Positions 1,686-21,118 of a stretch of DNA of 35,268 nt are shown here, one piece after another. The DNA lies in assembly GCA_027036355.1 (NCBI GenBank), contig JALVQZ010000155.1, positions 1-35,268 on the forward strand. Direction: 5' to 3'. The DNA comes from Acidimicrobiia bacterium. Its GTDB lineage: Bacteria; Actinomycetota; Acidimicrobiia; Spongiisociales; UBA5794. The notes below the pieces were generated by a model. It ran no database searches and was not told the DNA's origin. It saw nothing but the letters and a program-made list of their open reading frames with translations. Numbering within the stretch: the first letter of the stretch is position 1; each line of letters starts with the position of its first letter. The translations under genes were made by a program, and so were the position numbers.

Positions 1686-2608
1686 GGACCCACGCCGACG
1701 AACGCTTCGATGGCGTCGACGAACTCGTCCGCTCTGGACAGGATCGCCTCGTGGCCAGAGCCGAACATCTCGTGGATCCTCGCCTCGGGAAGGTACGAGG
1801 CGAGCTGGTACTGGGTGCGAGCGGGGACCACCTTGTCGTCCGACAAGATGATCACCATGATCGGAACGTCGAGGGTCCCCACCCAGGGCCGCGAATCGAA
1901 CCGCCACACCGCGGCGCCCGACTCGTAGTAGAGGGTCGGGTCACGGTTCATCAGGTTCTCCCACAACCACCGGCCGTGTTCGATGGCGATGATGCCTTGG
2001 GAGACGAGGAGCCGGTACGTGACCATGGCCGACTCCTTCTTGGAGAGGCGAGCGGCGGCCCGCCCCAGCCAGAAAGCGACCCGGACCGCCCCCCGGTGCC
2101 GGTCGATCGGGTAGGCGGCGGTCGCGGCGAGGATGAGCGACCGGACCCGGCCCGGGTACCGGCGGGCGAACGCCTGCGCCGCCATCCCGCCCATCGAGTA
2201 ACCGAACAGCGACACGGGGCCCTCGACACCGATCGCGTCGAGGATGCCCGCGAGTTCGTCGGCCAGGTCCTCGATGTCGAAGTGATCTCGGATCCGGTCG
2301 GACTTCCCGTGGTTGCGATGATCGGGAACGATGACCCGATAGTGCTGCGACAAGCGTGGAAGGACCCGGAAGAACGTCATCAGGGAATCGAAGCTCCAGC
2401 CATGGACGAGCACGAGAGGCGGAGCGGCCGGATCGCCCAGCTCCCTGACGAGGAACTCGTGTTCGCCGACGATGACGGTCCGGCCCGTGACCCGGCTCGG
2501 TCGGCGTTGGATGCCATGGAACCGAGGCGGGAACTCCGGTCCCAGCAGCCGCCAGGCCATCCACGCCAGGAAGCCGTACCACAGGGCCCGAGCCGTTCGT
2601 CGGATCAT
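1682..2608 (-). CDS. alpha/beta hydrolase
   Basis: [40 protein letters not shown]...[19 protein letters not shown]; nucleophile elbow GYSMGG. Confidence 0.9.
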
Positions 2609-3045
2609 CGATCCCCACCGAGGTCGTCGACGGCGAACACGTACTCGGCCACCGGCACGCCGTCGACGAGGTGTTCGACGATGATCCGCTCCATCACCTC
2701 GGGAGTCACCGAGTGGTACCAGGTTCCCTCCGGGTAGACGACCACGATCGGGCCCCGCTCACAGATCCGGAAACAGTCGACCTTCGATCGCAGCACCGTT
2801 CCCCCGCCGTCGGTGGCCGGCGGCGGAGAAGCGTCGAGGTCGTCGCCGCGCCACGGGGCGGGGGCCGAGGCGAGGCCGAGCTCCTTCAGGCGCCGCTTCA
2901 GGTACCGCCACAGTTCGGCGGATTCCTCGGCGGTCGAACACCGCGGGGTGGACTGCTGGGCGCAGACGAAGACGTGACGGCGGAGCGTCCCGATGCCCAG
3001 CGACGTAGCGATCGCCCGCAACCGATCCCTACCGACGTCCTCCAT
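2605..3045 (-). CDS. (2Fe-2S) ferredoxin-like, thioredoxin-fold protein
   Basis: [16 protein letters not shown]...[45 protein letters not shown], typical of thioredoxin-like [2Fe-2S] ferredoxins. Confidence 0.75.
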
Positions 3046-3122: not shown

Positions 3123-4181
3123 ATGGAACCCATCCGCCTGACGGCCTTCTCGCACGGCGCCGGGTGAGCGTGCAAGCTCGGCCCTGACGAGCTGGCGCAG
3201 GTCCTGCGCCGTCTGCACACCACCGCACCGATCGAGCACCCGGATCTCCTCGTCGGGATCCCGGGAGGGGACGACGCGGCCGTCTTCAAGTTCCGGGAGG
3301 ACCTGGCGATCGTTCAGACGGTCGACTTCTTCACCCCGATCGTCGACGAAGCCGCCGACTGGGGCCGGATCGCGGCCGCCAACGCGCTCTCGGACGTCTA
3401 CGCGATGGGTGGGCGCCCGTTGATGGCCCTCCAGCTGGTCGGATGGCCCAGGGACCGCCTGTCGCTCGACCTTCTCGGCGACGTCATGGAAGGAGGGGCG
3501 GAGGTGCTCACCGAAGCCGGTTGCCTGCTCGTCGGGGGCCACACCATCGACGACGCCGAACCGAAGTACGGGTTCGCGGTGACCGGACTCGTCCATACCG
3601 AGGACCTCATCACGAACGCGGCCGCCGAGCCGGGCGACGTCCTCGTGCTCACCAAGCCCGTCGGCACCGGCATCGTCGCCACGGCGATCAAACGGGGCGA
3701 AGCCGACCCGGCGGTCAGGGACGCGGCGGTGGCGACGATGCGCCGGCTCAACGACGCGGCGGCCCGTGCGGCCACTCGGGTCAGGGTGCGAGCCGGGACC
3801 GACGTCACGGGCTTCGGCCTGCTCGGCCACCTCGGCGAGATCGTGAGAGCCTCCGGCGTCTCGGCCGAACTGGACGTCGAGGCCGTGCCGGTACTCCCCG
3901 GGGTGTCCGAGCTGATCGACGCCGGGATGGTACCCGGCGGGACCTTGCGGAACCTGGAATCGGTGGCCCGGATGGTCGACTTCGGCATGCTGGGGCGGGA
4001 CACCCAGCTCCTCCTCGCCGACGCCCAGACGAGCGGCGGCCTCCTCCTGGCCGTTCCGGCGCCGCTGCACGGCGCGCTGCTCGAAGCGCTCTCGGAGGAG
4101 GGTGTCGACGCCGCCTCCGTGGGACGGATCGTCGCTCGCGGGTTCGCCGATGGACCGACCGGACGGATCACCGTCCGCTGA
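3123..4181 (+). CDS. selD: selenide, water dikinase; predicted selenoprotein with in-frame TGA (Sec) at 3165-3167
   Basis: From ATG 3123: [104 protein letters not shown]... One continuous frame to 4181 apart from the TGA; the SHGAG(C/U)xCK motif is the SelD active site. The ORF track reports only 3405..4181. Confidence 0.93.
3194..3210 (+). promoter_or_regulatory. candidate bacterial SECIS stem-loop
   Basis: GGCGCAG-GTC-CTGCGCC perfect 7-bp hairpin with GGUC at the apex, starting 26 nt after the in-frame TGA; resembles the GCAGGUCUGC apex of E. coli fdhF SECIS (from memory). Confidence 0.7.
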
Positions 4182-4359: not shown

Positions 4360-5787
4360 ATGAAGTTCCGGTTCCCCCAGCCCCGCCGCGTCACCCACGC
4401 CCTGCGTGAGCTGGCGCGCCGTCAACCCGACGAGGCCGAGGAGTACCTCGAAGAGCACCACGAGGAATGGGAGCAGCTCGCCGAGACCGTCCCCGAAGAC
4501 GCCGCCGACATCCTCGAAGCCATCGACGAGGAAGGAGCCGCCGAGCTGCTCACGGGGCTGCCTCCCGACGATGCCGGCGAGGTCCTCGACGAGATGAAGC
4601 CCGAGGCGGCGGCGGACATCCTCGAGGAGCTCGATCCCGCCACCGCGGCGGACCTCATCGAGGAGATGGAACCCGACCAGGCCGCCGACGTCATCGGGGC
4701 CCTGGAGGAGGACGAACGCACCGCGGTGCTCGCCCACCTCGAGCCGGAGAAGGCCCGCGAGATCGAGCGGCTCCTCGTCTACGAGGCGGACACCGCCGGC
4801 GGCATGATGACCACCGACGTCGCCGCCCTGCCGATCGGGATGACCGCAGGCGAAGCCATCGAAGCCCTGCGCCGCCTCCACGACGAGCTCGGCTCCAACC
4901 TCACCTACGTCTACACCGTCGATCCGCGAGGCCACCTCGTCGGCGTCGTCCCGTTCCGGGAGCTGGTCTTCGCCCGACCAGGCCAGGGCCTGGACGAACT
5001 GGTCATCCGCGACCCGGTGTCGGTGACGCCCGACACCGACCGGGAGCACGTCGCCGAGCTCATCCACCGGTACCACCTCCAAGCCATCCCGGTCGTCGAC
5101 CACGACGGCCTCCTGCTCGGCATGGTCAAGTTCGGCGAGGCGATGGAAGCGATCCAGGCCGAAGCCGGCGAGGACCTCGCGGTCATGTTCGGCGCCGGGG
5201 AAGAGGAGTCCGTGTTCACCCCGGTGCGTGAGTCGGTGAGGCGCCGCCTGCCCTGGAACCTCTTCAACCTCCTGGCCGGGTTCGTGACCGTGTTCGTCGT
5301 GGCGCAGTTCGAGGACACCCTCGCCCGCTACGCGCTCCTGGCCGCCTACATGCCGCTGGTCGCCGGGCTCTCGGGCAACAGCGGCGCCCAAGCGATCGCC
5401 GTCACGATCCGATCGATCGCCGTCGGCGAGCTCCCCCGCGGCAAGGAGCTGCGGGCGGTTCGTCGGGAGCTGGCCATCGGCCTGGTCCGTGGCACGATCA
5501 TCGCCACGGTCGGTGCGATCCTGGTGGCGGCCACCGTGGCGTTGCTGTCCCGGGGAGGCCCCGCCGATCCCGGACAGATCCCGGTGGCGCCGGCGCAGAT
5601 GGCGTGGATCATCTGGATCTCGATGATGATCGGGTTCACCGTCGCCGCCCTCGCCGGATCGTCCATCCCGCTGATCCTCCGCCGTCTCGGCCTCGACCCC
5701 GCGCTGGCGTCGAACATCTTCCTGACCATGACCACCGACGCGGTGGGATTCGGGACGTTCCTGCTGACCGCGACGCTGCTCCTCTAG
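4360..5787 (+). CDS. mgtE: magnesium transporter MgtE
   Basis: N-terminal acidic helical repeats (LLTGLPPDDAGEVLDEMKPEAAADILEELDP...), CBS domains (GGMMTTDVAALP...), then a TM domain (MPLVAGLSGNSGAQAIAVTIRSIAVGEL). Confidence 0.95.
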   Translation: MKFRFPQPRRVTHALRELARRQPDEAEEYLEEHHEEWEQLAETVPEDAADILEAIDEEGAAELLTGLPPDDAGEVLDEMKPEAAADILEELDPATAADLIEEMEPDQAADVIGALEEDERTAVLAHLEPEKAREIERLLVYEADTAGGMMTTDVAALPIGMTAGEAIEALRRLHDELGSNLTYVYTVDPRGHLVGVVPFRELVFARPGQGLDELVIRDPVSVTPDTDREHVAELIHRYHLQAIPVVDHDGLLLGMVKFGEAMEAIQAEAGEDLAVMFGAGEEESVFTPVRESVRRRLPWNLFNLLAGFVTVFVVAQFEDTLARYALLAAYMPLVAGLSGNSGAQAIAVTIRSIAVGELPRGKELRAVRRELAIGLVRGTIIATVGAILVAATVALLSRGGPADPGQIPVAPAQMAWIIWISMMIGFTVAALAGSSIPLILRRLGLDPALASNIFLTMTTDAVGFGTFLLTATLLL

Positions 5788-5790
5788 CTC

Positions 5791-6294
5791 CTACGAGCCG
5801 ATCACGGCGGTCCCGGCGTCGCTGAAGGGACCCTCGTAGACGATCCGGAAGCCCTCGACGAGCCGGGCGAGGAAGTGCTCCGACAGGATCGCCTGCTCCT
5901 CGTCGGAGGGTTCGTCGAGCATGACGATGTCGACGGCCGCGGGATCGTCGACCACGTAGACCTCGTAGATCGGTGGGAACGTCTCGACCACGTCGGTGAT
6001 GACGTCGTAGACGTCGATGTCGGTGAGGCCCTGACCATCGCCCTCGACCAGCACGACGACGGCGTCACCGAGATCCGAGACGGGGATCCTTCGAACGATC
6101 CGGTACTCGACGCCTTGGGCGCCGATGAGCGGCGGCAGCGTCGTGGTGGTCGTGGTGGTCGTCTCCGACGGCGCGGTGGTCGTGATCAGCGGCCGGGTCG
6201 TCACGGTCGTCTCGACGGAACCCGAGCGGTTGCACGCCGAGGCGACGACCCCGACGGCGACGACGGTCACGACCACGGTGCGAGCGATCCTCAC
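5791..6294 (-). CDS. putative lipoprotein with Thr-rich linker
   Basis: VRIARTVVVTVVAVGVVASACNRSGS (lipobox VASAC) followed by a TTTTTTTT linker; GTG start. Confidence 0.75.
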   Translation of the reverse strand: MRIARTVVVTVVAVGVVASACNRSGSVETTVTTRPLITTTAPSETTTTTTTTLPPLIGAQGVEYRIVRRIPVSDLGDAVVVLVEGDGQGLTDIDVYDVITDVVETFPPIYEVYVVDDPAAVDIVMLDEPSDEEQAILSEHFLARLVEGFRIVYEGPFSDAGTAVIGS

Positions 6295-6360
6295 CCGGCC
6301 ACTCTACCGGCGTGGCGGCGTACGGGCCGGGAGCCTGTCACATCGGGCCGGCACTACCGA

Positions 6361-6780
6361 TCATCGCGATGCCAGCCACTCGGCGTAGTCGACCCCGTCC
6401 ATCCACGGGGTGTGGTGGACGAGCCGGAAACGTCGCTGCACGTCCTCGAAACGTTCCGGGTCGGGAGCGTCCTCCAACTCCAGCATCGCCAGATCCAACG
6501 TCGGCCGCCACGCCGGTGGACCCAAGGCGGCGTCGACCTTCGACTCCCACGGGTCGGCGTCGGCGTCGGCGTCGGATCCCGCCCAGAGATCCCGGAGCTT
6601 GATCGCCATCCGAACGGCTTGGCGCAGGGATCTGGCCCGTGCCCGGTCGATCCGGTAGCCGTCGGCCGCCAGGGTCTCCAACCACTCGGCGAACGCCCCA
6701 TCCGAGCGCCACGCCTCCGGGTCCTCGACCACCGCGCGGTACAGGCGGTCCACGGCGTCCACGAGCGGAGCGCCGCTCAT
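6361..6780 (-). CDS. hypothetical protein
   Basis: 139-aa ORF overlapping the start of the adjacent aminotransferase stop by 4 nt, consistent with a co-directional operon. Confidence 0.65.
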   Translation of the reverse strand: MSGAPLVDAVDRLYRAVVEDPEAWRSDGAFAEWLETLAADGYRIDRARARSLRQAVRMAIKLRDLWAGSDADADADPWESKVDAALGPPAWRPTLDLAMLELEDAPDPERFEDVQRRFRLVHHTPWMDGVDYAEWLASR

Positions 6781-7616: not shown

Positions 7617-9331
7617 CGCGACGGCACCTCGCGGAAGTGATTGGTGATCGGGAGGCGACGATCCCGTCCGAAGGCCTTGCGGGTGATCTTGACCCCGGGT
7701 GCAGCTTGACGCCGCTTGTACTCGTTGCGGTCGACCATGGCCGCCACCCGGCACACGAGCTCCTCGTCGAACCCGTCGGCGACGATGTCGGCGATGGATC
7801 GATCCATCTCGACGTAGCGCACCAAGATGGCGTCCAAGACCTCGTAGGGAGGAAGCGTGTCGGTGTCCTTCTGGTCGGGCCGCAACTCCGCCGAGGGCGC
7901 CTTGTCGATCACCGGCTGCGGGATCACCTCGCCGGTTCGGTTGCGCCACTCGGCCAGCCGGTAGACCATCGTCTTGTAGACGTCCTTGAGGACCGCGTAC
8001 CCCCCGACCATGTCGCCGTAGAGCGTCGCGTACCCGACGGCCATCTCGGACTTGTTGCCCGTGGCGACGACCATCCCTCCGAACTTGTTGGACAGCGCCA
8101 TGAGGATCGCTCCGCGGATCCTCGCCTGCAGGTTCTCCTCGGCCACGTTCGCCTCGGTACCGGCGAACGCGGGGGCGAGGGTGTCGAGGAACACCGAGAA
8201 GACCGGCTCGATGGGGATCTCGTCGAACCGGATCCCGAGCCGTCGAGCGAGGTCCCGGGAGTCCGACACCGATCCCTCCGAGCTGTACCGGGTCGGCATC
8301 GTGACCCCCCACACGGCGTCGGCGCCGAGAGCGTCGACGGCGATGGCGGCCGTCAGGGACGAATCGATGCCACCGGAGAGGCCGACGACGACCTCGGGGA
8401 AGCCGTTCTTCCTGACGTAGTCCCGCAACCCGGTCACCAACGCCTCGTAGACCTCCGCCTCCGGATCCAGCCGCGCCACCGAGGGCGGAACGACCGGAGG
8501 GTCGCGGCGCACCTCCGGACCGGCGGTGACGGGGATCGGTTCCCCGGCGGTGGGTCGAGGCGGCGGCAATGGGACGTCGACGACGAACCGCTCCTCGACG
8601 AACTGGGGGGCCCGGTAGATCGCCCGCCCCCCGGCGGCGAACACCATCGATTCGCCGTCGAACACGAGCTCATCTTGACCACCCACCGTGTTGACGTACA
8701 CGACCGCGGCGCCGGACCGTTCCGCCTCGGCGGCCAGCAGCGCCGCCCGCTCGTCTCCCTTCCCGACGTGATACGGCGACCCGTTGATGTTGAGGAGCGC
8801 CCGCGCCCCGGCCGTGGCCTGCATGGACGGGGGCCCGTCGGGAGCCCAGATGTCCTCGCAGATCGACACGCCGACGGTGACACCACGGATCGAGAACAGG
8901 ACCACCGGTTCGGTGCCTTCGGCGAAGACCCTGGCCTCGTCGAAGACGCCGTAGTTGGGAAGCAGGACCTTGTGGTAGACGCCCTTGATCTCCCCGCCGG
9001 CGAGGACCGCAGCCGCGTTCGTGACCCGCCGCGGCACCGAGTCGTCGTCGAAGCGGTCCGGCACCCGATCGACGAAGCCGACGACCACCGCGACGTCTCC
9101 CGACGCCTCCGCGAGACGGTCGAGCACGGCCAGGTTCGCGTCGACGAACGAATCCCGCAGCACCAGATCCTCCGGCGGGTACCCGGTGACCGCCAGCTCG
9201 GGCAGGACCAGCACGTCGGCACCGACGGTCTCCGCCCAGGCCATGGCGTCGAGGATGATCCGTTCGTTGCGGTCGAGATCGCCGACGACGAGGTCGAGCT
9301 GGCCCCCGGCGACTCGAAGATGTCCGGTCAT
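7613..9331 (-). CDS. nadE: glutamine-dependent NAD+ synthetase
   Basis: Nitrilase domain (VLPELAVTGYPPEDL, SICEDIW, NGSPYHVGKGDER) plus synthetase domain (VVGLSGGIDSSLTAAIAVDALG, ATGNKSEMAVGYATLYGDMVGG). Confidence 0.96.
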   Translation of the reverse strand: MTGHLRVAGGQLDLVVGDLDRNERIILDAMAWAETVGADVLVLPELAVTGYPPEDLVLRDSFVDANLAVLDRLAEASGDVAVVVGFVDRVPDRFDDDSVPRRVTNAAAVLAGGEIKGVYHKVLLPNYGVFDEARVFAEGTEPVVLFSIRGVTVGVSICEDIWAPDGPPSMQATAGARALLNINGSPYHVGKGDERAALLAAEAERSGAAVVYVNTVGGQDELVFDGESMVFAAGGRAIYRAPQFVEERFVVDVPLPPPRPTAGEPIPVTAGPEVRRDPPVVPPSVARLDPEAEVYEALVTGLRDYVRKNGFPEVVVGLSGGIDSSLTAAIAVDALGADAVWGVTMPTRYSSEGSVSDSRDLARRLGIRFDEIPIEPVFSVFLDTLAPAFAGTEANVAEENLQARIRGAILMALSNKFGGMVVATGNKSEMAVGYATLYGDMVGGYAVLKDVYKTMVYRLAEWRNRTGEVIPQPVIDKAPSAELRPDQKDTDTLPPYEVLDAILVRYVEMDRSIADIVADGFDEELVCRVAAMVDRNEYKRRQAAPGVKITRKAFGRDRRLPITNHFREVPSR

Positions 9332-19346: not shown

Positions 19347-19967
19347 CTACCGTCGCCGGAGCGGCAGATCGTCGACCGTCCGAACCCGTCGCGGAGCCGC
19401 CCGATCGACATGCACCAGTTCGAGTCCCTCGTGGCTGGCCAACCACGACGGGAGATCCACCTCCCCCTCCACGCCGAGGAGATCCGGGATGAGCTCCCTG
19501 CCGACGACCACGGGCCAGCCGGTGGCGTAGCGGTAGCGAGGGGCGACCCCGGAGCGCGGAACCGACCGCCACCGATCGACGAGCGCGGCGACGACCGACG
19601 CCGGGACGTCGAGGACGTCACCGGGCAGGACCACCACCGCCGGGGCGGTGGACTCCCGCCACACCGTGTCCATCCCGGCCCGCAGCGGAGACGCCGATCC
19701 CTCCTCCCATCCCTCGTCCAGCACGACGGTCACACCGGTCAGGTCCACCCGTTCGAGGATCTCCTCGGCGTCGGGGCCGACCACGACGACGATCCCTTCC
19801 ACCGGCCACGACCGGACCGACTCGAGGACCCGTCCCAGCAGCGGCGAACCGCCGACGTCGGCCACGTATCGGGAGCCGGGGAACCCCGAGTCCTCGGCGG
19901 ACCCGTCGGCGGCCAGCACGAGCGCGACGGCGGCCGGGAGATCTTCCGGGGTCGCCTCGTCGGTCAC
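19347..19967 (-). CDS. MobA-like nucleotidyltransferase
   Basis: AAVALVLAADGSAEDSGFPGSRYVADVGGSPLLGRVLESVRSWPVEGIVVVVGPDAEE...VVVLPGDVLDVPASVVAALVDRW. Confidence 0.8.
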   Translation of the reverse strand: MTDEATPEDLPAAVALVLAADGSAEDSGFPGSRYVADVGGSPLLGRVLESVRSWPVEGIVVVVGPDAEEILERVDLTGVTVVLDEGWEEGSASPLRAGMDTVWRESTAPAVVVLPGDVLDVPASVVAALVDRWRSVPRSGVAPRYRYATGWPVVVGRELIPDLLGVEGEVDLPSWLASHEGLELVHVDRAAPRRVRTVDDLPLRRR

Positions 19968-21118
19968 TGGGCCAGCTCGGCGGGGATCTTGAAACGCAGG
20001 AACGCCCCGACCTCGTAGGGAGCCAGTTCGGTCTCGGTCGTCACGTAGTGCACCTCGCCACCGCCTTCGCGGACCGCTTCGGCGACGGCATCGAGGATGT
20101 CGGGCACGTCCTCCATCGAGGCTCCGCACACCGGGCACGTCGCTTCGCCGTTGATGGACAGGAACCCGCACGCCGGGCATCGGGAACCCGGCCGCGTCGT
20201 CTGACCCTGCACGAGCAGCACGTCGACCGCCCGCTCGTTGACCCGCGGCACCACCTCGGTGAGACCCAGGACCGCGTCGCCGCCGGAGCGGGCCACATCG
20301 AGGAGCTTGGCCACCTCCTCGCTCTGGGTCCGGCGCTCCCACCCGTCGACGACCTCTGCGGCCGCCGCCAGGACCTTGGCCGGCGTCATCGTTCCCGGAT
20401 CGATCGTGAACGTTCCCGCCACCAACGGTGCGAGATCGGGATGCAGGCTCTCGACGAGCCCCTCGGTGTGCTCCCGATGGCCCCCCACGATGAGGAGATC
20501 GAACCCGTGCTCGTCACGCCACAGCTGGTAGAGACGGGCGCCGATCCCGCGATAGTGCCGCTGCAGCACCTCGTCGGCGCGGTTCCTGACCCGATGCTCC
20601 TCGAGGCCGTACCAGCCCCCGAAGTTGTCCTTGCGGATCTCCTCCTCGGCCATCTCCTCCCACGTCTGCAGCTCGCCTTGGTAGAACCGGAAGATGTGGG
20701 CGTAGCGGCGGTCAACGACGACCACGGCGAACCGCTTGAAGTAGTCGAGCATCGCGTCCAGGGGTCCCATGTACGGCGTCGTGTCGACCACGGCCCGGTC
20801 ACGGACCGGCGCCGGCAGGCTGAGGTACTCCTCGATCCCGGCAGCCTCCGACCGGATGATGCCGACACCCCGACCGAGGTCCTCGGCGATCCTTCCCGTC
20901 ATCGACAAGATCGCCTCGATGTCGGCTTTCACCGACATCTTGTCCTCGCGGTCCATGGCGTCGGCACGGTCGGCGATCGGATCGAGCAGGTCCTTGAGAC
21001 GAGGAGAGATCGCCCGCAGCGTCCCCACGCCGGGGCGTAGCCCGATGTACACCGACACGATGGGCTTGCCGCCGGCGTCCAGTCCACGAAGCCGTTCGAT
21101 CGTCTCGGGGTCGAGCAC
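19964..21118 (-). CDS. bacterial eRF1-like protein (baeRF/Vms1-type) with C-terminal zinc ribbon
   Basis: GTG start; PIVSVYIGLRPGVG...FAVVVVDRRYAHIFRFYQGELQTWEE...LLIVGGHREHTEGLVESLHPDLAPLVAGTFTIDP...CPACGFLSINGEATCPVCG. Confidence 0.78.
   Translation of the reverse strand: MLDPETIERLRGLDAGGKPIVSVYIGLRPGVGTLRAISPRLKDLLDPIADRADAMDREDKMSVKADIEAILSMTGRIAEDLGRGVGIIRSEAAGIEEYLSLPAPVRDRAVVDTTPYMGPLDAMLDYFKRFAVVVVDRRYAHIFRFYQGELQTWEEMAEEEIRKDNFGGWYGLEEHRVRNRADEVLQRHYRGIGARLYQLWRDEHGFDLLIVGGHREHTEGLVESLHPDLAPLVAGTFTIDPGTMTPAKVLAAAAEVVDGWERRTQSEEVAKLLDVARSGGDAVLGLTEVVPRVNERAVDVLLVQGQTTRPGSRCPACGFLSINGEATCPVCGASMEDVPDILDAVAEAVREGGGEVHYVTTETELAPYEVGAFLRFKIPAELAQ

Follow-up and report, generated by a model that had tools for sequence, protein, structure and literature searches.

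SelD (selenide water dikinase) and FdhA have been listed as the selenoproteins with the widest distribution in bacteria (Zhang et al. 2006, PMC1794560). In the 35,268-nt stretch of DNA analysed here (the window), a selD frame is broken by a single internal TGA, and the question raised by this locus is whether that codon ends translation or is read as selenocysteine (Sec). As listed in Table 1, the frame opens with an ATG at 3123, carries the TGA as codon 15 between SHGAG and ACK, and stays open beyond codon 15 up to a terminal TGA at 4179-4181, which confirms the frame proposed in an earlier note on this DNA. When read through, it yields a protein of 352 aa with a computed mass of ~36.5 kDa (with Sec). 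This protein scored 399.8 bits against the NCBIfam selD model TIGR00476 (cut-off 125; residues 5-312) and 383.8 bits against NF002098 (cut-off 299), and thus belongs to SelD by curated cut-off. It is alike to the Cys-containing SelD of PDB 3u0o over residues 3-340 (E 9e-89), and differs in that 3u0o has Cys17 opposite codon 15, where Sec is predicted here; the earlier note had likewise placed the TGA at the catalytic Cys/Sec position. The other catalytic-site features of SelD were also found, namely the Lys following the site in SHGAG-U-ACK and the GDDA motif within GGDDAAVF (residues 48-55). As judged from the sequence comparisons below, this selD is almost certainly a Sec-containing gene, in which UGA15 together with a SECIS would direct Sec insertion by the known bacterial pathway.

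Table 1. Coordinates of selD and associated features (positions in the window).
Feature	Position	Strand	Remarks
Thioredoxin-like (2Fe-2S) ferredoxin-like protein	2605..3045	-	divergent neighbour of selD, linked across the order
selD (selenide water dikinase / selenophosphate synthetase)	3123..4181	+	352 aa, single UGA read through
In-frame UGA, predicted Sec15	3165..3167	+	Cys17 position of PDB 3u0o; codon survey of homologues
Second (side) hairpin	3175..3193 (3175-3180 with 3188-3193)	+	between UGA and SECIS stem; some covariation, weaker support
SECIS upper stem-loop GGCGCAG-GUC-CUGCGCC	3194..3210	+	7-bp stem, loop GUC 3201-3203, 33 nt past UGA
Shortened ORF from standard calling of selD	3405..4181	+	table-11 ORF list

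The TGA could instead be a true stop, leaving either a pseudogene or a restart at 3405 that gives a shortened protein without the active site. Gene callers do give 3405-4181 only, and the table-11 ORF list agrees with the earlier note that this is the sole ORF in the selD frame; residues 1-94, among them the active site and GGDDAAVF, are lost because table-11 calling starts at 3405. Moreover, TGA works as a stop in such genomes, as it is the terminal stop of selD itself and of 60 of 109 homologues. However, conservation at the protein level extends to the part before 3405: when 3123-3404 was compared with the homologous locus L022 (93% identical), the codon differences were mostly synonymous (12 synonymous, 3 non-synonymous). 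On this pattern, and on the matches to the selD model from residue 5 and to 3u0o from residue 3, the segment is to be taken as genuine coding sequence.

The codon at the active site was then read in homologous loci via tblastn coordinates. In the 109 loci covering the site, TGA was found in 85, TGC in 18, and TGT in 6, with no other codon, so that over all 109 loci the pattern is that of a selenoprotein gene, in which an in-frame UGA stands where homologues have Cys or UGA. This also bears out the earlier note's background statement that the SelD site holds Cys or Sec depending on the organism. The retention of TGA in 85 loci spanning several phyla, with Cys codons as the sole replacement, argues further against a true stop. 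When the 109 SelD proteins were placed on a tree, only 3 changes of the Sec/Cys label were needed, compared with a mean of ~22 after shuffling of labels. As to whether the TGA might be a sequencing or assembly error for TGC or TGT, it is one base from a Cys codon, and the assembly appears to be a draft of the metagenome type. Yet a second member of the genus (G007/L102, identical in sequence to L022; JALSQW010000032.1) has the same TGA, as do many other loci, and with it comes a matching hairpin that is missing from the Cys forms. An error is thus refuted by independent assemblies and its probability is negligible; the earlier note had named another codon at 3165-3167 as telling against its reading, and the second genome has TGA there as well.

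Bacterial SECIS elements have been described as having a loop of 3-9 nt with G in one of the first two positions, a stem of 4-16 bp, a distance of 16-37 nt from the UGA, and an energy of at most -7.5 kcal/mol (PMC13188914). The upper stem-loop in selD lies within all four published limits, with a 3-nt loop beginning with G, 7 bp, 33 nt, and -14.3 kcal/mol. For covariation, the alignment comprised 60 sequences of the UGA type, drawn from Actinomycetota, Gemmatimonadota, Chloroflexota, Bacillota, Planctomycetota, and others. In the SECIS stem (helix 2), 93.5% of cells were paired and two-sided changes occurred in 6 of the 7 pairs, for example CAG/CTG to CAA/TTG and GCG/CGC to ACG/CGT. The two-helix structure as a whole was 90.9% paired, compared with 84.1% in shuffles and 31-42% when slid, and it surpassed all 500 shuffles on 4 of 5 measures; in both hairpins the two-sided changes extended across several phyla. 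In contrast, the SECIS stem columns in 19 Cys-type sequences were 36.8% paired, with no excess over shuffles. That Cys-type homologues, unlike selD here, are without the hairpin is the strongest evidence that its role is tied to the UGA rather than to the protein. A covarying SECIS restricted to the TGA type also speaks against a true stop, and we regard that explanation as highly improbable. Because the 51-nt region, judged by folding energy alone, was unremarkable for its composition (z -1.07), the structural case rests on the covariation and on the Cys-type control. No Rfam element was found in the window at the gathering threshold.

The side hairpin (3175-3193) was 87.9% paired in UGA-type sequences, with two-sided changes in 3 of its 6 pairs. 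It is less certain than the SECIS stem because Cys-type genes, with 67.5% of cells paired, preserve it in part by virtue of codons held in common, and codon conservation therefore accounts for some of its pairing. For Sec-type SelD, a SECIS is an existing prediction (PMC4561486). We offer only tentatively, as somewhat less than an even chance, the proposal that the selD SECIS is a conserved two-hairpin element in which the hairpin at 3175-3193 brings the loop near the UGA, and that this element constrains the protein to LAQVLR after Sec. When the covariance model of the element was run over the whole genome, it recovered the selD site alone (E 5e-19), with the next matches at chance level, and detected no second selenoprotein. 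The best other full-length match (C181, 18.3 bits) proved on inspection not to be a selenoprotein frame.

The assembly (2.99 Mb, 290 contigs, 97.7% complete; selD on contig C155) was searched for the Sec machinery, which the earlier note, seeing none in the window, had expected elsewhere in the genome. No tRNA gene lies within the 35,268-nt window. The tRNA-Sec was found at C163:21340-21430 (73.2 bits, gathering threshold 47), with the anticodon tca (UCA) assigned by ARAGORN, and selA (C183:12341-13663, 398 bits) and full-length selB (C183:10552-12324, 292.8 bits) adjoin each other on the same strand of a third contig. Together with selD, the genome thus holds the complete Sec-decoding gene set; the absence of selB and selC, which by the earlier note would have counted against Sec decoding, is not what was found. 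As the machinery lies on other contigs of this 290-contig assembly, it is joined to selD through binning; the same set recurs in relatives. A search of this genome for the selenouridine synthase YbbB/SelU (TIGR03167) gave no match, and the selenouridine trait was not assigned; the known uses of selenophosphate in this genome are therefore Sec proteins.

The genome also encodes a formate dehydrogenase catalytic subunit (FdhA) with a TGA in SCNRT-U-HAPSV, the Sec context of FdhA; the earlier note had suggested a look for other selenoproteins such as this one. The UGA is followed, 18 nt on, by GUCGUC-GGUCU-GGCGAC, a plausible SECIS, which we do not claim because it is absent from the minimum-energy fold. 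The alpha chain of this formate dehydrogenase is split over two ORFs (L139, G000:C250:36000-50000; ~4534-6417 and ~8850-9000), with the Sec-containing catalytic part apart from the N-terminal Fe-S part (model positions 1-50) and NuoE/NuoF-like frames between them.

A further explanation is that the UGA is read as an amino acid other than Sec, such as Trp after code reassignment, or is passed by near-cognate readthrough. Some bacteria are known to have reassigned UGA. For hymenopteran insects, it has also been proposed that the UGA of SPS genes is read through without Sec (PMC4561486). Against such a reading, UGA is the terminal stop of selD itself, the alternative in relatives is Cys only and never Trp or Arg, and the TGA form goes together with tRNA-Sec, SelA, and SelB; we judge this explanation extremely improbable. 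Decoding as Sec, as the earlier note had supposed, is supported by the machinery genes, the TGA in FdhA, the covarying SECIS, and a site occupied by Cys codons or TGA only.

By analogy with the known pathway, we infer both Sec insertion at UGA15 and the enzyme activity of SelD. On the selD mRNA, the hairpin with its GUC loop, 33 nt beyond the UGA at codon 15, would be bound by SelB carrying GTP and Sec-tRNA-Sec(UCA), and the UGA would receive Sec in place of a stop. SelD made in this way would convert selenide and ATP into selenophosphate with Sec15 as the active-site nucleophile, and SelA would turn selenophosphate into more Sec-tRNA-Sec, serving SelD itself and formate dehydrogenase. SelD would then depend in part on its own product, because SelA needs the selenophosphate that SelD makes.

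Co-occurrence was next examined across the class, where 109 out of 148 genomes contained full-length SelD. A tRNA-Sec of at least 57 bits was present in 64 of the 66 class genomes with SelD read through TGA (exceptions G038 and G104), where the site codon was checked directly in 38 of the 66 and tallies were made by hand. Two genomes listed with an internal TGA (G051 and G137) have Cys at the site and were left out of the 66, and the three TGAs listed for G125 resolved into one active-site TGA, the true stop, and one codon beyond. Among the 39 class genomes without SelD, tRNA-Sec was found in one (G112, 77% complete). Moreover, the members of the order without SelD (G026, G054, and G144) had no selB over the cut-off and no tRNA-Sec of at least 57 bits. 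In the ~1-Mb genomes of family f12, SelD, where present, is always of the Sec type, and nearly all have tRNA-Sec; G011, G147, G037, G108, G045, G005, G053, and G128 (L140-L147) are ~1-Mb class genomes with both Sec-type SelD and tRNA-Sec. These ~1-Mb genomes are probably streamlined.

One of the 3 label changes on the tree falls within the order, where the Cys-type SelD of G001 (L130) is nested among Sec forms, and selB and tRNA-Sec are kept, a pattern as expected for Sec-to-Cys conversion, which has been reported as common for SelD (PMC1794560). G034 (L158) and G066 (L159) likewise combine a Cys-type SelD in this Sec-type order with retained selB and tRNA-Sec, and the SelD genes of all three genomes are candidate Sec-to-Cys conversions. 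The SelD of a record titled Armatimonadetes (L028, QQUL01000225.1) grouped closely with family f1 of the order (100/100 support); this record is a mislabelled or contaminated bin.

Sec-containing SelD is already textbook knowledge (PMC1794560, PMC4561486, PMC13188914), and the selD described here shares with the known SPS2-Sec type its family and length, a UGA at the position of the active-site Cys, a SECIS just downstream, and SelA/SelB/tRNA-Sec in the genome. It shows no difference of kind, and occurs here in an uncultured order among sequences labelled Acidimicrobiia. A literature search, judged by titles and abstracts, found no paper on Sec use in Acidimicrobiia and none for Actinomarina, which weakly suggests that the lineage is undescribed in this respect. 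Use of the 21st amino acid is thus very probable in this uncultured actinobacterial order, whose selenium use is easily missed because selD is cut in automatic annotation. The UGA-type and Cys-type selD genes also provide a clean comparative set in which the presence of the RNA element goes with that of the UGA.

In other systems, SelD is fused N-terminally to NADH-dehydrogenase or NifS (PMC2398784, PMC4561486). The SelD domain is common to these proteins and to selD here, but the latter has no fused domain and has instead a neighbouring ferredoxin-like gene. The product of this gene matched NCBIfam NF041612 below the cut-off (51 bits) and had no Pfam match. The gene and selD lie on one contig within ~2 kb in 26 of the 27 order genomes that have both, with varying orientation, either divergent or same-strand downstream (L127, L130, L111, and others). 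The ferredoxin-like protein is possibly a redox partner in selenium metabolism; the gene is not strictly tied to selenium, because it is kept in two genomes without SelD. Elsewhere in the window, positions 19964-21118 (- strand) encode a baeRF family 10 protein (bacterial archaeo-eukaryotic release factor-like; 74.7 bits).
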